This document shows, in pieces, positions 6,001-62,806 of a stretch of DNA of 64,000 bases. The notes under the pieces are model-generated. The model was not told where the DNA came from. It saw only the letters and a list, made by a program, of their open reading frames with translations, and did no database searches. How positions within the stretch are numbered: the first letter of the stretch is position 1; the number at the start of each line of letters is the position of its first letter. The stretch is from Antedon bifida (Eukaryota > Echinodermata > Crinoidea > Comatulida > Antedonidae): the NCBI GenBank assembly GCA_963402885.1, contig OY727094.1, positions 22,756,501 to 22,820,500 of the forward strand. Reading direction: 5' to 3'. The position numbers were made by a program, and so were the translations under genes.

Positions 6001-9000
6001 AATAGATTAAAAATAGGCATAATTTTGACAATATGTTGTCACTTTTGCAACTAAAACGCGCGCAAATTGTCTAAATCAACGTGTTCGTATGACGTCATTT
6101 TAATTTGAAATGATGTCAATCTTTTTTAAAATGACTACGATAGGCTGTAAAATCACAATTCAAGAGAAAAACACATAATTTTCATGCTCCGCGCGCACCT
6201 TACGCTTAATTTTTTCCGCGCGCGTGGGAATTTTTGACATGCTCAAAATGTCATGATCAGTGTAGAAAGTTGATTAGAAATTAATTTTGCGCATTTTGAA
6301 ATTTTAAATGCGCGTGCGCGCGTAACTTCTTGTGAAACATGCCATTTTTAATCCATAGAAAGTTGACCCATGATATGAATTATAATTTTATTAAGTTTCA
6401 TGAAAGAATATTTGTTGGTTCTAAAGTTATGATCAATTATAGAAATTCATAAAATCGCGCGTAACTTATGCAACGCGGATCTGATATCATCGAAAAGCTT
6501 GGCTGCACATCTACACTTCAATGTCAATCTTTTTACCAAGTTATACAAAGTTATGTTCACAAGCAATAGGGGATATGCTGTAGACAAAAATCCGGGAAAG
6601 AAAGAAGAATAACAAAGAAGATGAAAAAAAAAGATATTTACAATCACATGGGTTATCCGCAACTAAGTTGCGGATAACCAAAAAAAAAGATCCTGACAAT
6701 AACAAGGGGTTATCCGCCAAGTGCGGATAACCAATCAGGTGAAAATATATAGATAAAAAGTCCATATATATATATGGGGCATGTCTTTTTGTTGTCCTAT
6801 TCTGCGTGTACATTGTATATTTCCATCAATTGTAAGTTTGTAATTGTATTTTTGGCAGTGATTTCCTTCCATACAACTGTTGCTATGTATGTTGCTTTTG
6901 TTAGATTCAGGAAATGTCTATTATTGTTATAACAGTATCCCAATCCACATGGAAAAGGCTAACCATGGACCTATAAATTAAATCTAATTTATAGGTCCAT
7001 GGGCTAACCAAGGAGTTATTATAGTATTATTAGTATAACACATAATTAATCAATATATTAAAAAAAATATATAAAACAATTGTATTTGTCTCTTTTACCA
7101 TGTTAAAAAGAATTTTTACTAATTATACAGTAGCTTTGCTTGCTTTTAGTTTAATTTCATTTTTAATTGCTTTTTGGTTTGTTTATTAGTCTATATTCTG
7201 TCCAGGGTCAAGATAATATCCAATAATGTTCTCTTTTTATTTTATAACATAATCATTGTCTTTATTAATACATCTATCTATCTACCAATCTATATCAACC
7301 AATAATAAATGAACCACTGATTGAACACAATTACCTGTCGTAACACTTTCTTTTCTTCTACTCGTTTACTTTTCCATGCTTCTTCACTGCCTTTTTTACT
7401 TTCTAAAAAGCTGTAGTCCACATATACTTTCTCAAAGTTTTCGGTGTCAAACTGTAATATAAATATTAAAGCATAGAGAAGATACTGTAGTAAAAATAAT
7501 ACCCTATAATGCTTTATCGGTTTACCAAAATAATTTAGCTCTATCTCAAGGTTATATCATAGACCTAACTTATAGCTTTAGATTAATTACTTTTCAAAGT
7601 TATGACAAAAACAAAAATCAACCACATTTTTAAAAAAATGTCTGGGCATATAATTATATGAGAACATTTTAATAAAAAAAATAGTTTTCCTAATTTCAGA
7701 TGCGAGTAGTAACCAATATATGAAGCACTGATGAAGGTCTAGTGGTGCCCGAAAGCTCATTTTTTCAGTAATTTGCCTTTGGATTTATATATATATATAT
7801 TACATAGCCTATGTAAATACGTGAACGTGATTGGTTGAAACTGCATCACATGACTACCGCTGCGAGGATCGTAAATCGGCCTATGATAATATTATTATTA
7901 TTAATGTAGGTTTATTGATGGAAATTCTTCTGTTATTATTTGAACGACCTAGGCTAGTGAATATTTTATTGCCAAGGAATCATTTAGTAATTATTTATCT
8001 GTATATTATTCTTCGCAAGGTAAGGTGTCTTAGGCAGCTTGTTTACTGTTTACATACAATACAAAAGGAGGCCTAGCCTAGCCTAGCTTCACCCGACCCA
8101 GCAGACTTGTTCTTGGCTATGTAATATAACAGATATCGCCTTTTATATCGGTAAAATATAAGATTTAACATCCCCTCGGGATGATATTATGCCGCTGCCG
8201 CTTCGGGGTATATATATTCCCTCGAACATAATATCATTCCCTCTGGGATGTCAAATCTTATATTTCACCTCTAAGCAGGCAATATCTGTATAATATATAT
8301 ATATATAAATCCAAAGGCAAATTTCTGAAAAAAATAACAATGCTGTGGGTATCAGTGGCTGGATCTCAATGGAGATACAAAATAAAAGCGAAAAGCTAAA
8401 TCAAAACGAGAAGTAAAATAGCCAGAAAAGTTAGCAGAGCTTTCGGGCAACACTAGCCCTTCATCAGTGCAAGTGAAGGAATTTGGATAACGTCATAGTA
8501 TAAAGCTGGCAAGTGCTGCCTGGGTGGACAGGAATAAAAGAAATATAACAAAGGGAGCCAGGGTGGAGTATATTATTATTATTATATATAAATCCAAAGG
8601 CAAATTACTGAAAAAAATGACAATGCTGTGGGTATCAGTGGCTGGATCTCAATGGAGATACAAAAAAAAAGGCGAAAAGCTAAATCAAAACGATAAAGTA
8701 AACAGCCAGACTTGCACTGATGAAGGGCTAGTGTTGCCCGAAAGCTCTGCTAACTTTTCTGGCTGTTTACTTTATCGTTTTGATTTAGCTTTTCGCTTTT
8801 TTATTTGTATCTCCATTGAGATCCAGCCACTGATACCCACAGCTTTGTCATTTTTTTCAGTAATTTGCCTTTGGATTTATATATATATATAATAATATAA
8901 AAGGGCAACACAAAGAACTGAATGTGGCGCCATCTTTTGCAAATTTATTTATGGGACAATTTGAGGCCAATTTTCTGTCCAGGCTCCAACCAATAATAAT

Positions 9001-12000
9001 AAACCACTTGTTAGATACATTGACAACATCATCATGATCTGGATGATGATAATCAGAATACTTGGATAGAGGCTAAGCAAAGCCTATTAGGGGGTTTGCG
9101 CAAGACACTGCAAGGTTTGAGCAGTTTAGCAATACACATAATGCACCTGATCATTGACTATATATATGATACAGACATTTATTTAAAAGGAGCGCTATGG
9201 CGCTGACGCTCCTTGGCGCTTCTGAAAACGATCAAAGGAGCGCCTAAAATAGTGCTCCCCAACCTTTTACAGTGCGTCATAAAAATATATATAATAATAA
9301 GAATATTAACCCTGAATACAACACACAGTCTACATATAGTCGCGCAAACGATCTTTGTTATGGTTACCCCCGATAGGCTAGGCGCGCCTACGATCTTTGA
9401 TGTTGCGAGAAAAAAATCGTAAACAATTCATTCTAAATATAGTTCAATTGGTCGCTCAAAAAGACTGCCGACAGAAGACCGTAATTAATACAGACCTAGT
9501 TTTTTTGGTCACATGGCATGAAACGCGATACTCTCTGCTTTACCGCAACATCTCACATGTTTTTTTTTTAATCAGTAGTACGAGAGGGTGGCTGCCGTCT
9601 GACGACGACAAAACAGTAATTAAGTACCTGGATTTTGTGTCACATGACATGAAACATAATACTCTCACATGTTTTTCCCCTCCAAATTTTGGTCGGGCCT
9701 TTTCTTAATACACATGTCGTAATCATTTTAAAAGGCTTAAGCCTTATGTTAAATCTTATAGTAATTAATATGGAATATATATTTATTTTGCATATATTTT
9801 GTTGGTGTCCTAGCCTAGGTGTCGTTGTTTTTATAATTCGCTAACACAAGGTAGGATTAAATAATTTATAGTGTAGGCCGCCGAAACTAGACTAGGCCTA
9901 GATAGCCTCGACTCTCTCTCTGCGTGAGCTGAGGTCCATGGACCTGATGTCGTCTCATCGGCAGATTTCCGTCCAAATTAGGATAACCGATGCGTAGGCC
10001 TAGGCTAGGGCGGCTACAAAAAATGACGTCTACTATCTTTAGATAAGATTTTAATTAGCAAATAACACATTGTTTGTTTGCATTGTCCATGCTTCTAAAG
10101 GCGATGACAATGGTGTTTACTAACCCTATGAACCACCCTACGATCGACGCGTAGAGATAATTGTCATAACAATACATCGTAAGCTACGAACAATACTTCA
10201 GAGAACAATGACCTACGATGAATTTTACGTGCGAGAGTACCATTTCCGGCCATCTAGAGGTGACATTTATCAAAATTCGGCTCGCCACAGGCCTCGGACA
10301 CTTAATCAAAATAATGAGGAGCTCTCCTCTTATATTTGAAAATCAAGGTCTGTATATATAAATCCAAAGGCAAATTACTGAAAAAATGACAATGCTGTGG
10401 GTATCAGTGGCTGGATCTCAATGGAGATACATATATATATATATATACTGTATTACCGAGCTAAGTTACTATTTTTAAAAAATCAAATAAAAGAAAATGC
10501 TTACTTACCTTTGAGAGATGTTTTAAATAAATTTCAAGTCTATCCAAATTCAATTCTCCACCATTATTAATAAATCCTTGTACAAAAACAAAACACAAAA
10601 CAAATCAGTTTATTACTTCAAAACAATGATACAATACAAGTTCAAAACAAAATGACTGCAAAATAAACAATTTCCTAGTTTCAAAAAATCACAGGGGATA
10701 GCTACACAAATCTTTTGATGTACAAAGCAAAAACAGGTGATTTTTAGATTCATTGTAAGTAGTAGACAATTATCTTACAGCAGGACATCATTAAAAAACA
10801 ATAACATTTCAATTCATATTTTTTTCATATGGCCACCTGAATTGGGAAAAAAGGGATTTTTTCTTTTTTGTTAGTTTATCAAATTCAAATCATCATAAAG
10901 AATTAGTAATGTAAACTACTTTGAATGCATTCATCCGTTAATGCTCTAGTAGGCTTAAATTTCAGTAGGTTTAAGTGAATATAGGGAGCTTTGGATTACA
11001 GTTGATGCCATCAAAACTGTGTGGAGGTGGGGAGCGAGGAAATGCATCCCTATATTCGAATCCGGGACGATTCAGCCGCGAGACGATTCGGCCCTCTTTT
11101 GGTGGGACGATTCGGCCCACCTTTGGTCCGAAACATCCCACTTTGTGGGCCGAAACGTCTCACTTTAGACCAAATTCATATTTATTTTTGTTGATTTTTA
11201 TCAAGTTTTTAAAGGTGTTTAACAATCCGTATTTTATTGATATTGACAATGTTGATTATATATAAATAAATAACTTATTCCGGGCCGAATCGTCTTAGGG
11301 CCGAATCGTCCCACTACCCTATATTCTTGCATGCAGCACACAATGAATCATGACATAGTTTAGTTGTCTATATCCTTGCATGCAGCACACAATGAATCAT
11401 GACATAGTTTAGTTGTCTATATCCTTGCATGCAGCACACAATGAATCATGACATAGTTTAGTTGTCTATATCCTTGCATGCAGCACACAATGAATCATGA
11501 CATAGTTTAGTTGTCTATATCCTTGCATGCAGCACACAATGAATCATGACATAGTTTAGTTGTCTATATCCTTGCATGCAGCACACAATGAATCATGACA
11601 TAGTTTAGTTGTCTATATCCTTGCATGTAGCACACAATGAATCATGACATAGTTTAGTTGTCTATATCCTTGCATGCAGCACACAATGAATCATGACATA
11701 GTTTAGTTGTCTATATCCTTGCATGTAGCACACAATGAATCATGACATAGTTTAGTTGTCTATATCCTTGCATGCAGCACACAATGAATCATGACATAGT
11801 TTAGTTGTCTATATCCTTGCATGCAGCACACAATGAATCATGACATAGTTTAGTTGTCTATATCCTTGCATGCAGCACACAATGAATCATGACATAGTTT
11901 AGTTGTCTATATCCTTGCATGCAGCACACAATGAATCATGACATAGTTTAGTTGTCTATATCCTTGCATGCAGCACACAATGAATCATGACATAGTTTAG

Positions 12001-28511: not shown

Positions 28512-31500
28512 ATGAGCTATAACATTTCGCATCAAGGAAAGCCACCCCAACCACAAAGCCAGCATCCGGCACATTCTCGGGGACAACAGCAATCTTCGTA
28601 TCCTTTACTTATTATACAATATACACATTTTAAAACACAAATAAGCCAATTTCAATCTTCAAATGACTGGTAGTAAATACTAATACTAAATAGACATGAA
28701 TCGTCTTCCTGCTGAGACTTTACCATCCATCTCGGAGCCGGCGAAACGTGTTACACAAGGGCGGTGTAGTGTGGCTTCTGCGCATGGCAGAATTAAATTC
28801 ATATATAACATACGTTCTATTTGTGTTAGTTTATATTTTTAATGTATTCAATGGAAAATATTTCTAGCCCTATTACATTATTAAAAATGGCCCTAGGCCT
28901 ATTAATTATTCTTTGTAGGCCTAGTAAGTAGAAACATGTATTTGATCCTTGTGTATAATCTGTCTGTAGCCAGACCAGAGTCTAGTTAGCACACAGTACA
29001 GAAAGAAAATACTTTTCCTACGAAGTAGCTTCGTAGATAGAACATAGGCTACATTGTGGTTACATTGTTTGTCTTCGTAACCTCAATAAACAACCCTACG
29101 ATGTTCTTTGTGAAGTAACAAGGCGTGAAAATTAAAGCCCCCTTCCCTACGTTTTTTAGATCTAATTTAACATCACAAACTATATTTAATGTAAAAATAA
29201 TACTATATGGTCCTATTGCGATAATTTTTTTCGTCTTTAAACGGTTAAAAATGTGAAAAATAAGTCGATTCTAATAATTATAGCGGCCCGCTATAAATCC
29301 CAAAATGCATTGCGCGCGGATTGATATTTTTGTTTTTCACCTGTAATTCGCCCACTTTTCGATCGATCGTGAGGCAAAAACAAATGGAAGACTCCTAACT
29401 TTTCAGTGAAAATACCGGGTTTTCCCCAACTTGTATCAACGGAGTCTGGCAAAAATAGAAAGACAATTAATGCAGCAACTATACAACGTCAGGCTAGGTA
29501 TATAGCTAGCGTACGATGTTCGTACGTTACCGATGTTTACCAGCTAGGCCTACAAAACTAAGCCTAGCTAGGCTAGGCCTAAGACCGTCCACGAGAGGTC
29601 GATCGCCGCGAGCTACTTAGGTAGTGCATTGTTTCTCACTTTTTATCATAATTTACCATAAAACGTACATTTAAGACAAGGAATGACATGGTTTAATGTT
29701 TTTAAAGTGATATATATGTATTATTTTCCAAAAAACGTCCAAAATTGCAGGGAAGGGGTCTTTAATGTGCCAATTTTGACTTGCAGAGGACCAAGTTGTT
29801 ACTAAAAAATATATATTTTTTAATCGTTTATTTCGTGCATGTTTACCTACTCAACTGCAAATATAAATTTCCCACGATGTAAACGTAGAGACACGATCCA
29901 ACACAGGTGAACCTGAATGAACTAGGCCACTAATAAAAATAATATAGCGAACTTCTAGTCGATCCAGAAACGTTGCTGACAAAAAAGATTGTAACAAATT
30001 CATTCTAAATATAGAATAATATAGTATCAGAACGTTCAGTCGGCCGCTCAAAAAGAATTCCGACAGAAGACCGTAATTAATACAGACCTAGTTTTTTTGG
30101 TCACATGGCATGAAACATGATACTCTCTTACCGCAAGCTCTTGCATGTTTTTTAAAAAAAAACTTGGTATTAGAGGGTGGCTGCCATCTAGCGACGATAA
30201 AACACTTTATTAACTGGATTTTGTGTCACATGACATAAAACGTAATACTCTCTTAAACTGTTCCCAAGACTTGCATGTTTTTTCCCCTCCAAATTCTGGT
30301 CGGGCCTTTTTCTTTACATAATTTAAAATGATTAGAATATATTTATTTTGCATATATTTTTTTGGTGTCTTAGCCTAAGTTAGGATTAAATAATTTATAG
30401 TGTAGGCTGCCGAAACTAGGCTAGCCTCAACTCTCTCTGCGTGAGCTGAGGCTCACAAGCCCGATGTCGTCTTTAGGATAACCGATGCGTAGGGCGGCTA
30501 CAAAAATTGACGTCTTTTGTTTGCATTGTCCATGCTTCTAAAGGCAATGACAATGGTGTTTACTAACCCTACGAACCACCCTACAATCAACGCGTAAATA
30601 ATTATTATAACAATACATGTAGGCCACAAACAATACTTCGTAGGCTACATTAAGAGAACAATGACCTACGATCTACCTACGTGTAGGCTACGAAAGGTTA
30701 TGTGTAGAAACGAAGCAGTTGTTTTTGTACTGCAGTAGTGGCCTCTACAGCGTAACTTTAAAACTAGCCTACCATAGAGGCCTGTCTAAATGGATTCTTA
30801 ATAATATGCCCTGCCTACTTCACAAAAACCAGTTTGCAGTGAATTCGACAAAACAAAGGGTACAATTGATTCTAAACTTGTTCAATTGCATTTTGTTGGG
30901 CACTGACTTGCTGATGATATGCAGAGACATCTCATTACGCTATTAGTATATAGTTTACAAATTCAACCACTACACAAATACATATTTTATGGTTTTAATG
31001 ATAATTGAATTTAGGTGAGGAGACACAGTTAAAAACAAATTATCACTGATTTCCTTAATAATTATTCTAGTGGCCATTACACCCGTGAGGACTACCAACG
31101 TCGACAAGCTTATCAAGTAAGTCAATTGATAACTGCAGTTATCAACATTTAAAGTAACTTTGAAAATGGCACAGGAAAATGTCGTGGTCTGATGATCACC
31201 ATGTCATCTCTCTTCCATGAGCTAACCTCTAAACTTGTGTTACGACAAAATGTAAAAGTTTTTTATCCAATTTTTTTATTTGGTAGAGTCCATTAATTAT
31301 ATTGGTGTTCACTACCTATTTAACGCATGCTTCTGCCGCTGCATTGACAATCGCATATATCTGTAATCATGCGATTTATTTGGCAAAGAGGACCAACATT
31401 TTTTTCTACCAATTTTATTCCACAATCTAGTGTAAGCCTAGCTCCTACATTTGCCATGCCTTTTAATTTTTTAATGGTTTTTTAAATTGTGGATTTTAAA

Positions 31501-40900: not shown

Positions 40901-43900
40901 GTCAAATAGTACAATTTCGCAAGTTGTTACTAAATCGATGTCAACGGGAGTTTGAAAGTGAATCACAAGATGAAAATCTATTAAAAGAAAAAAGAAAAGA
41001 AATAGAACTTCTTCCAGTATGTATCTAGTTTAATTCGACAGTAATATTACTGTAACATTAATCCATAATTTAGTAAAATCATGATTTTTCATATAACTAT
41101 ACACATTAATAATTTAAAATTGGAATTCTTTATTTTTGCCGTGTTGTATATTGTTAAAAGCAGTACATTATAGAAGCATTATACTCTTGATGAAACATTG
41201 CACAAATTTGATCCACTATGTGAAAAACTAACTCACAACAAAAATTAGCCTTATACAATATGTATTTTCCGAGACATTCTTAACGCAATTTCCTCAGACT
41301 TTAAAAGCTTATAACTCAAATTGGGAATTCTAACTTATTCCAGGCCATAGTATAGAGATATGACGCAAGACTATTTCTTGAGATAAAGTACCCAAAATAT
41401 GAAATGTATATTCTACTTTGTCTGAACACAGGGTGACCCCGAAACTTGACAGCTAATACCAATCCTGAGTTATGAGCTTCCAAATTCTTGACAAAATTGT
41501 GTTGGCAAATGTTTACAAACCAAGCCTCTTCTTTGTGGGAAAGTTTGTTGTCAGTTGTTTTTTTACATAGTGGATCATATTTATGGAGTGTCGTCTGTGG
41601 CATGATTTGACATAGAATGACCCACCTGGCATTCAAAGTAACCCAATCAAGCAGTTTACATGCATTCATGTAGCTAATCTGGGCTATCTTGCCTTTCACA
41701 CAGTTGGTAAAACTATATAATCATGAAAGTCTTCCCTGCTATTAATTTATTTATCCAAGTGTCTAGCTTGTAGAAATTGATATGAACTGTGGTTTTATGG
41801 TTTTATTAGGTTGCCCTTTGTAGAGAATGCCTGACATGATTTGTCAATTGCCCTGGGCAGACAATTTTGCAAGCACTGATTTGTTTGTGAAAATGCTGCG
41901 GGATATCATTAATATCACTTTGACTGAAAGTTGGTATCTGTAAAATCGGTTCTTAGTTTGTGATGTATATATTAATCCGACAATCATTCAGAACATAGTA
42001 AAAAAAGAGTAAATTTTAATGTTCTCCTCCTGCATGAGCTGAAACATAACAGTAATTCCCAAAAATAACCCCTTAATTTGCAGCCATGGTATAATAAATT
42101 AATTTCGTGCAACTTGTGATGGTACGGCAATGGTTTAATATATATAAAAATGTTGTTTTCATGCAGGAAAATGAACGAGACTCAAAGAAAGATGAGTTTG
42201 AATTGGAAGTGATTGCGGCAAAGCGACGGTCACTTGGAAATATTAAGTTCATTGGTGAATTATTTAAAATTAAAATGTTAACTGAACACATTATGCACAA
42301 CTGTGTGGTGCAGCTGCTTAAAGCAGCTGATGATGAATCATTGGAGTGTATGAGCAAGCTTCTAAGCACTATTGGAAAGGAGCTAGATCATGAAAAAGCC
42401 AAGGTATGTAGGCCTAGTCTTTGCTGTCAACCTCTGATTAACTTTTTTACAGATCATAGAATTTCACCTTTTCGGTTGTTTGACCTTGATAGGAATGGAC
42501 AATGAGAACTAATTTATAATGGAATTTAACTGCACCTTTGGTTTATTTGCATAACTGTATAAAATCTGAAATCGCAAAACAATCTAATTTCGGCAAGAAA
42601 TTTGTCTGCTTTGTAGCTCATATAATATATGTATTTTCTTTTGTACAGTTTCGTATGGATCAGTACTTCCAACAGATGGATAAAATTATTAGAAGTAAAA
42701 AAAATAGCAATCGTATACGATTTATGCTGCAAGATGTAATTGAACTTAGAGAGGTAAGTAGGTCTACACTTGTTTGTGCACAAAATCCAAATATTAGTCT
42801 ACATAATTTGCCCATAGAAGTAAATATCTCCCTTCCTTAATTTATTAGCACAATTGGATACCAAGACGAGAAGATAGTAAGCCAAAAACAATAGATCAGA
42901 TTCATCAAGAAGCTCGCGAAGAAGAGGTGATGAAAAAGGTCGAGGCAGTACAAGCCCAGGCTAACAGGAAAGCTAACAGAGGTAATAGAAATGTAATGTA
43001 TTCCTAACTGTAACCATACCATCTACATCATACAAATTTAACAAGTACAAATTTGCCCCTAGAATTTGGTTTCATGTTTAGTTTCCACATATAATATTCA
43101 TGTATTATATCGTGACACCAATGTGGCTACAGACACTACTTGCGTGAAATGGATTTTGTGTTTTTACGAAGTGACACCAATGCTCAGCCTTAACTTACTA
43201 GTTCATTAATTAACAAGTTTACACCTTTTAATAGCTGAATTGTCTAGCATTACAGGCGTGTAAATAAAACATAGAAATGAAAATGTCTTTAAGCTAAAAT
43301 TGTGTTTTGTGAAGCTCTTTACTAAACCATGTTTTTCACGAAACGCATGGTTATGACAAATGACGTAGTTAGTGTGTCTACGTGGTGTCGCTGACGATAA
43401 TTATGTGAAAGCATGTTTCAAAATTAAAAAAAAAAACTTGTGCTATGATGTTTTTTATTGAATGTCAATGTTTTTAGAAATTGAAAAAATTGTTTTTAAT
43501 GTTAACATAAATAATTGATCATGAAATTTGCAGTAGTTCGCAATGATCGAGGTAGCCTTCAAATGGACGATGGTGAATGGAATGTAGTTGCTAAAGGAAG
43601 TGGACGTCCTCAACAGGTTGATCCAAACAAATTCAAAGTTACCAAGGTAAAATGTTTGTTTTTTTACTTCTACACACACATACATGCATACACAGGGTTA
43701 ACACACAAATTGGCAATTGCAAGATAATTATTGGAATAATTAAACGTTATTCTGTTTTATTTTAGCAAGCCGTTGACGATAATGTGCAATTGGGGCCAGG
43801 TGGTAGACCAGGTTCATTTGGTGGTTGGGGAAGGGGAGCTAGTGGTGGTGGAACTAAGCCATCAAGCAGTTCACAAGAAAGGCCTTCAAGTCCAGCTGCA

Positions 43901-46900
43901 AATCGCTTCTCTGCATTATCTGATGAACGACGATTTGCTCCCATTGGAAGGTAACACTTTGCAAACTTTGGTGACGACCAATGAGTGTAAAGGCTCAATA
44001 TTTGTTTATACCTAGGCCTAATCATATTTCTATGACATAATTTAGGCATGATCTACAAATTATTTCCAACGCTATTTTCAAATACCGTAACAAAAACAAT
44101 TTAACTCAAAAGATGCCAATATTTTTGTTAAGAAAAATCCATCTACACACAATCTAATTAACTAAATATTTAGTTTGTATAGCTGATTAATGTTTAGCTT
44201 GAAAACAATGGCAAACGCATTTAAGCATGTTTCTGAAACCCAATAAATACCCTAATTCATTAGGAATAATTTGTAGTATAACGAGTATTCAACCAGAAAA
44301 AAATTAGAATATCTGACTAGTAGTGACCTTTTTTGGTATTAAATATTTTGATTGTCTTATTTAAGTAACTTAATATATGCATTACTGTAAATTTCTAATT
44401 GACCAAATCTTGAATTTTCCTTGATAAAGGAGTTTAGGTACAAATAGTAGAGAAAGAGATTTTCGAGGTGGTCGGAGTTCACAAACGAAACGAGGATCAA
44501 GAGAAAGGGATGACCGACCAAGTCGTGATAAAGATAGGCAAGCAGCTATTGACACTGTTAAAAGAATGTCTGCATCTCAAGAGCGCAATAGAGGTAAGCA
44601 TTTGAAATGAAGAATTTTGTATTGATTATCCAGGGTTCAGCATCCTTAAATTCCTTGAAAGTTATGGAAAATAAATTACTTTTTTCAAGAACTGGAAAGT
44701 CCATAAAATTGAAATTTGTCCTTGAATGTCCTGAAAATTGTTATAATACAGAAATATAATATGAATTCTTTGTAATAATGTTTTATTATAAATAATTAAA
44801 TGACACCCCTAGATGGCCAGAAATGGTACTTGTGCATGTAAAATTCGCCGAAAAGGATACTGCATAGCGCACTAGAAAACAGCAAAACGATGAAGGTACT
44901 TTGGGTACGGTAATAATTATAATCAATTACAACAAATATTAACATTGTTTTTCCCGCGTGCATTGATCATGAGTCATCAATCAAAAACGGAGGCAAGTGT
45001 AAATTATGGAGAAAAACATCTCCAACATAGGACGGTTGCCCTTATTTATAAATATCTCTTCAAAACAAATCGAGCAAAGCAAACAATACGCCGCAAAGAA
45101 TGTATTATTGCTAAAAAATAAAAAAACTATTAAAAACCAGATGTGTGTACATGATTTCCCAAATGAAATTTGCGAGTGGTTAATTTTTTATTTTGTATTT
45201 ATACCTTCTAAAAAAAAATCATACGGTATACAAAAAGGGTATTTGAACGTTGAATTGTTATTGGACCTAACAATTCGGAATCATCTTATACCCGATCCTA
45301 TAATATCAAATGATCAAGATATCGTCAATGCGGTGACTTTAGAAACAGCACCCTTTGTTCAATACCGGCAGCGAAGGCACGCGACGTGACTACCCTAGAC
45401 AGGAAGTCGGTGATTGATGATTTCACAATAGCCTGCACTGCTGTTGCATGTCACATGTTGTTCTTTTAGCCTACTCGATTCCCACGCGTATGTATTCAAC
45501 GGTACCAAGTACTATTATTAGTACTCTCGTCAACATAAACTGAGTGAATGCAAATTATTTTAATCATATCGATCATGTATAATAGTTTAAATGTACATGT
45601 ACAATATAATCTCTCCAACTCAACATAATATTAAACATAAACTGATTATTTACTTGATTAGGTCCAGCTAAAGTTGTTGAACCATCACCTCCAGTACAAC
45701 CAAAAAGTGAGGAGCTAACAGAACCAGAAATGCTTAAGAAATCGAAAGCAATTATTAATGAATTTATGCATCTTAAAGATAAAAAGGTAAAATAATTTAT
45801 ATAATAATTCATTTTATTTAGATCTTTATCGTATTTCATTTTATTTATTATTAGTAAGTCACATAATCAGTTTCAGCTTTTTTTTTAAATTCTTGATTTG
45901 CTGAATTAGAAAAAGATAAGTGTCACTTTTTTTGTAATTATGAAATTCCAAAAGCTAAATATAAAATGGCACTTATTTTTACTCAGCAACTCAAAGAGTT
46001 AAAAAATCTGTTTGTCACACTAATCGAGCTGGCAAACAGAACAAACTTTTATACATGTTTTTAAAAAGAAATATACATAGCTTGGTCTATAGTGGGAAAC
46101 CTACACTGATAATTACTGATAATTTCAAATAATGACCCATTATTCTGAACCATTATACTTTTAGGAAGCCATAGAATGCGTGACAGAACTTGAGAATCCA
46201 AATCAAATGCACCTGTTTGTCAGAGTAGCCATCGAAGAAACTCTAGAAAAAACGGAACAAGCAAGGAAAGTTGTTGGGGAGTTGTTAAATGAATTAATTA
46301 CATGCAAGTTGTTAAAGGTTATGGATTATAATAAAGGGTATGTTTATTTCACTCCTTTCTGTGAGGTGTGACTGACCAATAGATTCTATTATAATGAAAC
46401 CCTGTCTACCATTGTACACCAGGCTAGTACTAAATTGAGCCATGCAAGCATGTGGAAAAATGATAGCTGTGTCCAAAGATTCAGTAGATAATCACATTCA
46501 AGTTTTAAATTCATTTGTTTCTTGTTGTAGATTTCAAGTTATACTAGATTTTGCTGAAGACATGGCTATTGATATTCCATTAATTTGGAAGTACCTCGCA
46601 CAGATTATATCGCCAGCCATTTCAGGTGGTTCAATGGAAATGAAAAACCTGTTATCTTTGTTAGAACCTGTCAAGGCTATAGGAAAATCTGGACAGCTTC
46701 TAGCTGAAGTACTTAAAACTCAAGCTAAAGAAATTGTAAGTTTATTTGATATATCAACTACCAGTGTTTCTCCAACACTTCTTCATATCATACAGTACCA
46801 TCCAGAATACATTTACCCTTGCACACGTATTGTCTTTGTGTAGCAAAAAGGACATTCTAATTAATAGTAATATTTCAATTGGCAAATGTAATCAGATATC

Positions 46901-58600: not shown

Positions 58601-61600
58601 CCTGCGACCGCCCCTGGACATGCATTGCATTGTAATTATAGGACCTACAGTATATCGATTGTGAGTGAAACTCCCAATAAAATATTGGGTGGGTATTATT
58701 ATGCAAGATAATTGCTTTAGTCATTAATAATATACATTCTTTTTTCCATATTTTATCATTTAATGTTTAGGAAGTGGATGTTAGTGGACGAAGATAATAA
58801 ATACCTTGTTGCTAAGAATGAGCCTTCAGTAGCATTGATAAAAACATCTTTGTCAGATGATGCACATCATCTGGTATTGAGTGCAAAGGGTCATCCATCA
58901 ATACAGGTACCACTGTCGCCTAATAGGAATGCAGAATTGGTAAAAGCTAAGTGAGTTTTTTAGTTACTGCCAAAATAAAAATAGATTGACATTTTAGTTA
59001 ACAAAAATTCACCCACTATTAAAATCTTGAAGTATTAGTCTGGGAGCCCAGGAGGTTTTAATTAGCAATTTGAGTACAAAAGGTTTGAGGTGTGGAGTAT
59101 GTAGATATGGTCTATGGGACCCAGAAATGGCAATTCTTAAGTGATGGCTTTAATTGGCCTCAGATTTCAAACTTAAGAATGGTGAATCCTTAATCAGTAT
59201 GTTCATAAGTATGTGTGGTGTGAATTTCGTTGATGTACTCAAAATGCTAATTAAATGTCTAATTAGCGCTAATTAAAGGCGTTCTGAAGTAAATTTAGCA
59301 CAGGAATGGTCACTTAAGAATTATGGATATTGATTTCTGATAGGTCAGAGAACATTTTAGAATTGGTTTGGTCATGTACTCGAAATGCTAATTAAATCAA
59401 ATTTTAGGGGTCATTTGGGTGGTTCCCCCTTAAAATTGAACAGGACCCGTCACTTAAGAATTGCCATTTCTGGGTCCCATAGACCATATCTACATACTCC
59501 ACACCTCAAACCTTTTGTACTCAAATTGCTATTTAAAACCTTGGGTTCCCAGACTATATGTACAAAATAAATTTTCTCTGATCATGTTCCCCTGATTGAA
59601 TGAGTGGTGCTTGAAACTATACTGACATACCAGCTGCTGCAAACTTCATTCATTTCATATTTCCCAATTCCACCATAAACGTGTATGTATACACCATTGC
59701 ATAGTTTGCTGAAATTTGACTTAAGTATCTTAAATAAAACATCCAACCAAAATTGCTAATGGGGCAATTTCATTACCAGTTATCTAGTCCTACAAAATCT
59801 TTTGATGATCTCTAAATTGTTCACCCTTTCTATAATTCATTCTTGTAGCAAAATCTCTAGATCCTATGAACAGTTGTAGATAATACTGTATATCAAAATG
59901 AAACCTCAATGTTGGGTATAGGTTTTGTTTCTTGATATTTTAAGGTTACATGAAAGTATAGTTTATGGCTATGACTGTGGAGAAGAAGCTTGTATGTGGA
60001 TCTCAAATGTTATTAAAAGTAACAAAACCTACAGAATGATTGTACATGATGGCTGTGTACAAGGACGTACATTTAAAGATCATCCAGTGTGGAAGGAAAG
60101 GTTTACTGGCAAAGAGAAGGTTAGTGACATGTCACATAATTTATTCATACATGACAATTTTATGTTTTTTTCACAACCAAATGTTGACCATTTAGTGTCT
60201 TTTATTTTCTAAGCTTGCATCACTAAAATTAGGCTGTTAATTACTCAAAATAAATATTATAATATTGTATTTCACTATTTTGTTTATTTTTAAGTTAAAA
60301 ATACATTTTTTTATCTGCTTCTAATGCAAACAAGTACCTAGCTTAGCTCTCCCTGCTGACTGCTAATGCTATTGGCTTCTCATGTTCTTTAAATCCAAAG
60401 TTTATTGGTGTACCTTCTCTAGTAAAATTATTAACCTCACTTTTGCGAATAACTCTCATAATAGAGGCACCTTCTATAAAAGACACTCGTCCAAAAGTCT
60501 GAAAGTCTAAAATTTAAACGACAAACGATTACCTTCCGTACAGTGATGGTTTATATCCTGGATCTATAGTTTCAGTATAGCATTATATTATTGGTACCTT
60601 CCTACAGCACAAAACTAAGTGCTGATATTGTTTTTCTAGGCATTGTATCAGTACATGACCCAATTTCATGTCAATAGCATTGCATCTCTTGATGAACTCA
60701 ATCACAGAATGGAAGAGCCCCTAGGCCTACAGCAGTTTCGTGGTAACATTACTGTTACAGGGAGCAATGCATTTGCTGAAGTAAGCAACATTAATTTGTA
60801 TTCCATTTTCTATTAATGTTTCCATCTTCAACATCATTAGTCTGGTCAATGTAGCAAAAATAATGGGTATACCTAGACAAAATTACAGAATTTATTTTTG
60901 TGGTAAATATCTCTAAAGACCTATCAGAAAAACATATTAAACATGGAGAAAAAATGTAGTTGAAGAAATTAGGTTAATGTCCATAAAACCAAAATGGCCG
61001 CTATATACAGTATTTTTTTATATATCGGGTATAGTCTAGGCAATCTAGAATTTAAATTCAAACAAATTGCAAACAAAGCTTTTAGTTTTTAAATTGAACA
61101 CACATGATGTGGAGATAAAATTCCACAAATCACACCTCGTTTACACCTTGGGAACATATGCAAATTAGCTGAAATATGCAAATTAATGGTAAAAACATAG
61201 CGTACCAAAAAACGCCACCCGTTAGTTATAGAGAGTTGATTTTTTGGAATGGAAGCTAAAATGGTGGTTAATATTGAAACTTAAATTTTGGTAGTCAATG
61301 GAATAATTTTACCGATCTGGGAGTATGTTCCTAATGTTAAGTCCAAAAGGTTTTGTGGTTTTAAGTAGTAATTCCCAGTGGTTTTCTTTGTCTTTGCGAG
61401 TTTTGTCGCTCCATTTGACATCATGGTCTATTGCAATAACTCTGAAATTTGCAATCGAGTGACCAGCTGAATTAAAATGTTCGGCTACAGGTTGATCAAG
61501 CTTTAATGTTTTGATAGCTGATCTATGTTGTGTCATTCTCATACGGAGAGTGTTTTTTGTTTCTCCGACGTACTGTTTGCCATATATATATATATATACC

Positions 61601-62806
61601 CAAATTGTTCTTATGGAACATTTTGTCCAACAAATGACCATAAGTGCTGTATTTGACCTTATTTTCAAAGGATTGGGTGTTTTCCGATCGTGGTATTCAT
61701 ACATAAATACTATTTCTTTTAAACATTTAAATAGCATTATAAGAATATTTTCATTCAATAAGGATAATTGATTAGGTGTTGGAACTTGGTTTTCGTTGAG
61801 CAGTATTGAACTAATTCGCACATTTTGATAATTAAAATTTTTTTTGGTGCAATTCCCAAGTAAAATCAGCATGAGATAATGATTAATGTATCATGTGAAA
61901 ATTTACTACATAATGAATTCACAAAATTAACAAAATTGAAAAAACGTTTTATGGTATACCATTTTTGTTTCAATGCAACTATAGGACCATTGGGCTATGC
62001 TAAAAATTGGAAGTGCTTGCTTTTATAGAACACATGACTGTGGAAGGTAAGTTTCTTGCATTCATATTTACTACATAGCCTATGTAGATTGGTTGACTGG
62101 CTTCTATCTTCTGCTACAAGGAGCAACAATTTATAACTTGTGATAACAGTGACCAGTCTCCAACTCACTGAATGTCCGACCACAGTGATTTATTTACTAC
62201 ATAGCCTATGTAGATTGGTTGCATTCATATTTACTACATAGCCTATGTAGATTGGTTGACTGTCTTCTATCTTCCGCTACAAGGAGCAACAATTTATAAC
62301 TTGTGATAACAGTGACCAGTCTCCAACTCACTGAATGTCCGACCTCAGTAATTTATAGGCCAAGTCGAGTGTGATACCTGTATTTTAAATGTGTGGCTTG
62401 AGAGATTGATGTTGGCTCAAAAAGCGTGAGCCTCATGTCAGCAGATGCATTGAGATTTGTATGAATATATTTTCCAAAACAAATTCCTAAACTTAGGGAT
62501 ATATTAAATGAAAGCAGAAAATGTCTGTTATTAGGTGTATAATATTGTTGAAATATAAGGAAAAGGATTTTGAAAATGTATGTATTTAATGTGCTGTTTG
62601 AATTACTTCAAGTGTGTATACATTTTCCAAGAATGATTAATATTGGCACTTAGTGTGACAAAGAGTTTAGTTTAAAAATTATTATAATGTATGTATTGCA
62701 TACATTTTCAATGTGAATACAAATATTTTTACAGATGTCCAATAACAATGATTGATAGAGAGAATGGGAAACTTGGTCAAGCTGAGCCATTAAGGACACT
62801 TAGAAA
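52468..62806 (+). CDS. MTARC: Mitochondrial amidoxime-reducing component (mARC, MOSC-domain molybdoenzyme), 3' end off window
   Basis: mARC is a molybdenum-cofactor enzyme of the outer mitochondrial membrane that, with cytochrome b5 and its reductase, reduces N-hydroxylated compounds such as amidoximes. Exons: 52468-52697, 58771-58950, 59945-60119, 60640-60780, 61985-62046 and 62735-62806. These join in one frame (860 nt, about 286 residues) with GT-AG introns; the last donor leaves phase 2. Vertebrate mARC has about 337 residues, so roughly 50 are missing to the right. Landmarks: an N-terminal membrane anchor, IHPIKSCGGV, CTDRGIKAGELRDRKWMLVD, YDCGEEACMWI, ITVTGSNAFAEDHWAML and the Cys of DCGRCPITMID, which is the Moco-ligand position in the family. 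Animals often have two paralogues; which one this is cannot be decided. The 6-kb first intron is nearly all repeats. Confidence 0.95.
52735..52975. repeat. GACGATTCGGCCC motif and CCCGTACCCA tandem tract
   Basis: Immediately after mARC exon 1: GAGACGATTCGGCCC, then a run of at least six roughly 20-base units containing ACTCGTACCCA or CCCGTACCCA, the last three being GGCTGACCCGTACCCATCAT and variants. Simple-sequence origin. Confidence 0.8.
53185..53764. mobile_element. 580-bp foldback element
   Basis: Ends CAGAGCCATATATA and TATATATGGCTCTG. Inside, the two halves are long imperfect reverse complements. For example TTATACATTTT...GACTCAACTCC faces its mirror near 53290, and GTTTTTGTTAAGATAATAAC-like faces the region near 53585. 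The arms are about 270 bases. No coding capacity. Confidence 0.85.
53773..53960. repeat. Two tandem end-fragments of the foldback family
   Basis: Two near-identical units of about 100 bases, each starting CAGAGCCATAT, then AAAGAGTTACGACATTGAAA, ATTAGAAGCC and TTCGCAC. They link the foldback to the larger tandem duplication that follows. Confidence 0.75.
53961..55380 (+). repeat. Tandem duplication, two units of about 0.7 kb
   Basis: Unit 1 (53961-54652, 692 bases) and unit 2 (54653-55380, 728 bases) are nearly identical. Each starts TTTTGTATAGC and ends ACTCTTTATATATATGGCTC then TG. Unit 2 has an extra stretch of about 36 bases (TATGGCTCTCTGTGTG region) near 54890-54925. An 80-residue open frame in unit 1 (54073-54315) is not preserved as one frame in unit 2. 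Confidence 0.85.
56360..57115. repeat. Tandem array of about 200-bp units, 4 copies
   Basis: GTCAGCAAAAACACGTA recurs at 56442, 56641 and 56838, and as GTCAACAAAAACACGTA at 57051 (spacings 199, 197, 213). Each unit also has GATCATACG and ATAAATGCGT-like segments. Units 3 and 4 share ATTCGACCCCATAGCCCT. In mARC intron 1. Confidence 0.8.
57490..58206. repeat. GGTTATCC-type repeat, copy D with two terminal hairpins
   Basis: Starts near AGTTATCCGCACGAC and carries the family's internal blocks (ATTACTAGAAAAGGCTG, TTTTAAAAACGCG, CATAAAGTAAGGGCATGATA-like). It ends with two hairpins at 58118-58140 and 58183-58202 in the same positions as copy B. The first stem is TATCTGC/GCAGATA instead of TATCCGC/GCGGATA. 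Confidence 0.75.
58771..60780 (+). CDS. MTARC: mARC exons 2-4
   Basis: Exon 2 (58771-58950) starts KWMLVDEDNKYLVAKNEPSV. Exon 3 (59945-60119) has YDCGEEACMWISNVI. Exon 4 (60640-60780) has SLDELNHRMEEP and FRGNITVTGSNAFAE. They match the middle of the MOSC protein in order. A 519-bp foldback element lies in the intron after exon 2. Confidence 0.94.
59037..59555. mobile_element. 519-bp foldback element in mARC intron 2
   Basis: Ends AGTCTGGGAGCCC and GGGTTCCCAGACT. The arms of about 130 bases are near-perfect complements (for example GGTTTGAGGTGTGGAGTATG and its mirror). The centre contains two imperfect direct repeats with CTAATTAAAT and ACTTAAGAATT. No coding capacity. Confidence 0.85.
61309..61872 (-). 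pseudogene. Penelope-like element fragment: C-terminal GIY-YIG endonuclease domain
   Basis: The last 90 residues of the frame form a GIY-YIG-type domain: GKQYVGETKNTLRMRMTQHR (the YVG core and the conserved Arg), then LDQPVAEHFNSAGHS, a Glu in ENHWELLLKT and a terminal TTKPFGLN. This arrangement is that of the nuclease at the C-terminus of Penelope-like retroelements. A TA microsatellite interrupts the frame just before the GKQYVG motif (61583-61600), and the residues further upstream do not look like reverse transcriptase. It is therefore a 5'-truncated, decayed copy in mARC intron 4, opposite to the host gene. Confidence 0.8.
61985..62806 (+). CDS. MTARC: mARC exons 5-6 (Moco-binding cysteine)
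   Basis: Exon 5 (61985-62046) ends THDCGR and exon 6 (62735-62806) continues CPITMIDRENGKLGQAEPLR. The cysteine at about residue 264, directly after the split Arg codon, corresponds to the molybdenum-ligating cysteine of vertebrate mARC. The intron between carries a 163-bp tandem duplication. Confidence 0.94.
62058..62350 (+). repeat. 163-bp tandem duplication in mARC intron 5
   Basis: GCATTCATATTTACTACATA at 62058 and again at 62221 begins two units that share CAAGGAGCAACAATTTATAA and TGACCAGTCTCCAACTCACT. The palindrome TACATAGCCTATGTA occurs at 62072, 62198 and 62235. The first unit starts 11 bases after the exon 5 donor. Confidence 0.9.

Follow-up and report, generated by a model that had tools for sequence, protein, structure and literature searches.

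A near-perfect foldback that carries a hammerhead-like core at its tip raises the question of whether it is a mobile element in its own right or a product of a known one. We addressed this question for a foldback in a 64,000-nt stretch of the genome of the crinoid Antedon bifida (hereafter the window, with positions counted from its first letter). Our reading, to which we give a probability of roughly 0.75, is that the foldback is a pair of pseudo-LTR (pLTR) fragments of a Penelope-like element (PLE), arranged head to head in TA-rich DNA, and that the longer fragment extends far enough to include a minimal type I hammerhead motif.

The preliminary description had reported a perfect foldback at 8585-8886 enclosing a 47-base loop. 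The arms and the loop are real, but the arms are near-perfect rather than perfect. In full, the inverted repeat comprises two arms of 142 nt (8569-8710 and 8758-8899) that are 96% complementary and separated by 47 nt, with 6 mismatches in 142 positions, three of which lie within the AT-rich outer end; the part of each arm belonging to the element measures 126 nt and shows 3 mismatches in the pairwise alignment. RNA of the region 8569-8899 is predicted to fold with −230.9 kcal/mol, compared with a shuffle mean of −64.3 (z −29.7). Rfam microRNA matches in 8200-9000 were below the gathering scores and were dismissed as a reflection of the long hairpin.

The loop (8711-8757) contains the core as it had been quoted, in the order GCA-CTGATGA-A-GGGC-TAGTGTT-GCCC-GAAAGCT-C-TGC. 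We delineated a minimal type I hammerhead motif at 8714-8750 on the plus strand, composed of a stem I of only 3 bp (GCA/UGC), the CUGAUGA box, an extra A, a 4-bp stem II (GGGC/GCCC), the GAAA box, AGCU and a C. By the hammerhead rule we take cleavage to fall after the C at 8747. The 38-nt core at 8713-8750 recurs in identical form at 8434-8471 on the minus strand, stems I and II included. The pattern CTGATGA-N(1-30)-GAAAGC occurs three times in the window, compared with a mean of 0.04 and a maximum of 1 among 100 shuffled sequences, and because all three belong to a single repeat family, we counted them as one event. Both partial copies with the two boxes mentioned in the preliminary description exist, one on the minus strand at 8439-8467 and one on the plus strand at 7728-7756. 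The plus-strand copy is damaged, with a stem II of GGTC/GCCC and the stem I partner gone, and fails the stem rule. The extra A, previously raised as a caveat, follows CTGATGA in all three matches. A motif search with stem rules across the window returned the two intact motifs exclusively, while a looser box search gave nine matches, three of which were those described above; the other six failed the stem rule and were taken as chance. The absence of a match to the Rfam hammerhead models, one of three outcomes named beforehand as speaking against a ribozyme, is what we found: there was none in the window at gathering scores and none in 8200-9000 at E-values up to 10, in a scan run without a PLE-type positive control. 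Neither the core nor the end of the repeat had a match in the viral_contigs collection (0 and 0), which says little as the collection consists of viruses.

Comparison of the region with the window by blastn, together with pairwise alignments, revealed five copies of one repeat at 7.7-10.4 kb. Copy B (8711-8886, plus strand) is a 176-nt repeat resembling a PLE pseudo-LTR, holds the hammerhead motif and makes up the right half of the foldback. The left half is copy C (8585-8710, minus strand), which is 126 nt long, shortened at the 5' end, devoid of the hammerhead and different from B at 3 of 126 positions. In the foldback, B and C thus meet at their 5' ends, and its loop is the stretch present in B and missing from C. 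Copy A (8300-8570, minus strand) has the intact motif at 8434-8471 and extends about 96 nt further upstream than B. Copy D (10355-10431, minus strand) is a 77-nt, 5'-truncated copy without the hammerhead, flanked by a long TA tract on its 5' side and a short TA run on its 3' side. In copy E (7725-7793, plus strand) the damaged motif (7728-7756) is followed directly by the end portion of the repeat, the middle being deleted. Within the window, then, A and B retain an intact core, that of E is damaged, and C and D, which are shorter at the 5' end, have none.

All five copies share the 3' end CTTTGGATTTATATA, which runs into TA-rich DNA (a short run in D), and the 5' ends vary: B starts 3 nt before stem I, E at the first base of stem I and C 10 nt beyond the predicted cut, and of D only the last 77 nt remain. 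Copies that are anchored at the 3' end and truncated at the 5' end are what target-primed reverse transcription usually leaves behind. The window contains ten TA tracts of at least 5 units, four of them at copies E, A, B and D, but since the 3' end of the repeat is itself TA-rich, this association argues weakly for a target preference; in D, moreover, the long tract is on the 5' side, and the AT-rich flanks would hide any target-site duplications. With regard to orientation, C and A lie in the same direction and B is inverted, so that the pLTR-like repeats occur both as direct and as inverted, head-to-head copies; A, D and E each lack a head-to-head partner. The short mobile element proposed in the preliminary description, with arms that serve to hold the ribozyme, is therefore not supported, the arms being two opposite copies of one repeat end.

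The copies differ from each other to unequal extents. A and B show 6 mismatches and 3 gap runs in 176 positions, and A and C show 5 mismatches and 3 gap runs in 127, so that A stands further from B and from C than these two (3 in 126) do from one another, as would be expected if B and C came from a single event or a single source. D, however, aligns to C with no mismatches and one gap in 78 positions and is as close to C as B is, or closer; likeness alone is thus no proof of a single event. We also considered A, C and B as one insertion (direct, direct, inverted), against which the greater divergence of A speaks, although not decisively.

Two further features of the region were recorded. The last bases before the deletion in copy E are GAAAGCTC, so that the deletion starts at the position where the hammerhead is predicted to cleave, which is one case seen after the fact; a 2-nt TC microhomology, given the shorter T run of copy D, explains the deletion equally well. 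Directly left of copy A, at approximately 8156-8264, an imperfect inverted repeat (AAGATTTAACATCCC...GGGATGTCAAATCTT) was noticed by eye, and the blastn comparison of the region with the window reported no likeness between it and the repeat studied here.

We infer that the parent of the repeat is a PLE, and as no coding remnant is tied to the repeat, this membership is drawn from the repeat structure and the hammerhead. The connection to PLEs made in the preliminary description agrees with both, the core having the anatomy of a minimal, dimer-type type I hammerhead. Beyond the TA tract that follows copy B, at 8900-9100 on the plus strand, lies a decayed reverse-transcriptase-like remnant with a ten-residue motif and an RYIDN motif in two frames. 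Its X-joined peptide matched Pfam RVT_1 with an E-value of 0.13, below the cut-off, and its two separate pieces gave no match in Pfam; the order of its motifs presumably resembles that of PLEs. A GIY-YIG endonuclease-like remnant at 61309-61890 on the minus strand (Pfam E-value 0.035, below the curated cut-off), which we take to be PLE-like, lies 52 kb from the foldback, with a TA microsatellite (61583-61598) where the domain begins; none of the repeat copies detected by blastn within the window is next to it. Together, these two remnants suggest PLE-like debris in the window. Elsewhere in the window, a dispersed repeat with internal sub-repeats is present at 9402-9700 and 29972-30307 (approximately 74% identical), and exons of an eIF4G-like gene occupy approximately 42-47 kb of the plus strand, with an MIF4G domain at 42098-42505 (E-value 2e-17) and an MA3 match at 46439-46843 (E-value 0.0006, below the cut-off).

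The repeat structure has close parallels among described elements. In a study on the Penelope pLTRs of Adineta vaga (PMC3846280), inverted repeats stand beside direct ones in AT-rich surroundings, as here: two direct pLTRs are accompanied by an adjacent inverted one, shorter in the copy presented in detail, head-to-head placement is the most frequent inverted arrangement, and a preference of PLEs for AT-rich targets is cited as reported earlier. In contrast to these pLTRs, no open reading frame was found with the Antedon repeat, which is represented by short copies only. Minimal type I hammerheads are described for PLEs in several reports (PMC7761336, PMC6155905, PMC7229834), two of which characterise them as devoid of helix III (PMC7761336, PMC6155905), and one of which proposes that they may act as dimers and calls their role unknown (PMC7761336). 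These PLE motifs, as known from papers that cite the defining work (Cervera and De la Pena 2014; Lunse, Weinberg and Breaker 2017), share with ours the two boxes, stems I and II, a helix III cut down to a few self-complementary bases and the location in a retroelement-like repeat end of a eukaryotic genome. The motif studied here differs from them in the 3-bp stem I, the missing Rfam match and, probably, the extra A between CUGAUGA and stem II.

In our judgement, the fragment has inherited a genuine hammerhead of the PLE type. The alternative that the core merely resembles a hammerhead by chance, in an ordinary repeat without ribozyme ancestry, appears improbable to us. It gains from the negative Rfam scan, from the departure of the extra A from the consensus and from predicted core folds that hardly surpass those of shuffled sequences, with z-scores of −0.95 for copy B, −0.99 for copy A and +0.36 for copy E, which adopts another fold. 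We take this extra A to sit at the same place in the core as that of a viroid hammerhead. The plus hammerhead of chrysanthemum chlorotic mottle viroid is likewise described with one additional A in the conserved core (PMC3705267), albeit in a viroid and not in a retroelement-like repeat, and a viroid hammerhead is weakened by an extra core nucleotide according to another report (PMC11014351). What argues against coincidence is the occurrence of both boxes, the intervening stem II, stem I and the AGCU-C junction in the correct order, the low chance expectation of the box pattern, even with its three matches taken as one event, and the fact that PLEs are known to carry such motifs.

Whether the hairpin itself could act as a ribozyme is a separate matter, which bears on the original proposal of a distinct non-autonomous hairpin element whose mobility would be driven by a self-cutting ribozyme at its tip. 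Folding is in its favour insofar as stems I and II are in place in the predicted monomer folds of A and B and are formed at the tip of the long helix in the predicted fold of the foldback RNA. Nevertheless, we consider this proposal highly improbable, for B and C are the only two of the five copies in the window that are joined as a hairpin, the Rfam search was negative and stem III fails within the hairpin. The AGCU previously designated stem III is indeed self-complementary, but it has no loop, so that stem III cannot form inside a single molecule and would be possible only between two. Pairing of two motifs is not favoured by the predicted energies either: two monomers at −8.9 kcal/mol each do at least as well as the double hammerhead (−17.1), and the best dimer fold (−21.8) is another structure, in an energy model that omits tertiary contacts and protein. 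In a plus-strand transcript spanning A and B, moreover, the motif of B could pair with the complement contributed by A over approximately 175 nt, which leaves no cis dimer at this locus. Cleavage in cis by the foldback hairpin is therefore unlikely as judged from these models, as help from a dimer partner or a protein would be needed, and the motif is probably inactive or weak within the hairpin. For a PLE hammerhead, cleavage was found exclusively upon addition of protein, and the ribozyme was dispensable for insertion in vitro (PMC11167929).

For the origin of the foldback, taken as a pair of PLE ends, our proposal is tentative, with a chance that we place somewhat below even. The PLE endonuclease would cut both strands of a TA-rich target, and the element RNA would be copied from each DNA end, beginning at one and the same 3' position. 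Both cDNAs would terminate prematurely, one at 126 nt and the other at 176 nt, and joining of their 5' ends would then give the foldback. Apart from this joining step, we take the ribozyme motif to come from the parent element, in which it would function either as a dimer or together with the PLE protein, and not to owe its function to the hairpin in cis. Both outer ends of the foldback being the 3' end of the repeat supports such two-sided target priming, and a purified PLE protein does cut AT-rich DNA and extend both strands in vitro (PMC11167929). Two independent insertions or self-priming would, however, yield the same hairpin. Self-priming or template switching of a single nascent cDNA (snap-back), which we find less likely than not, concerns the joining step only, leaves the PLE identity of the pair intact and lies within the confidence given to that identity. 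The near-identity of the arms fits snap-back, and self-priming was deduced for Adineta vaga PLEs from palindromes at inverted junctions (PMC3846280). At the junction 8710/8711, on the other hand, the repeat listing contained no further palindrome of at least 12 nt, and both outer ends lie as the 3' end of the repeat in TA-rich DNA, as if each had been target-primed, in keeping with the extension of both strands seen in vitro. A broader version of two-sided priming, in which head-to-head PLE ends are its footprints in general and the deletion in copy E reflects a jump of the reverse transcriptase to the 3' end of ribozyme-cleaved RNA, is a speculation that we hold to be rather improbable.

The foldback is most likely a new example of a known phenomenon, namely PLE ends that carry a hammerhead motif. 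It adds to the genomic cases of PLE-like repeat ends with a hammerhead motif one that went unreported in our Rfam scan. What deserves to be retained is that inverted pLTR pairs may be linked to two-sided priming: if such priming held across many copies, inverted pairs would provide a genomic test of the both-strand activity of PLE proteins that is seen in vitro.
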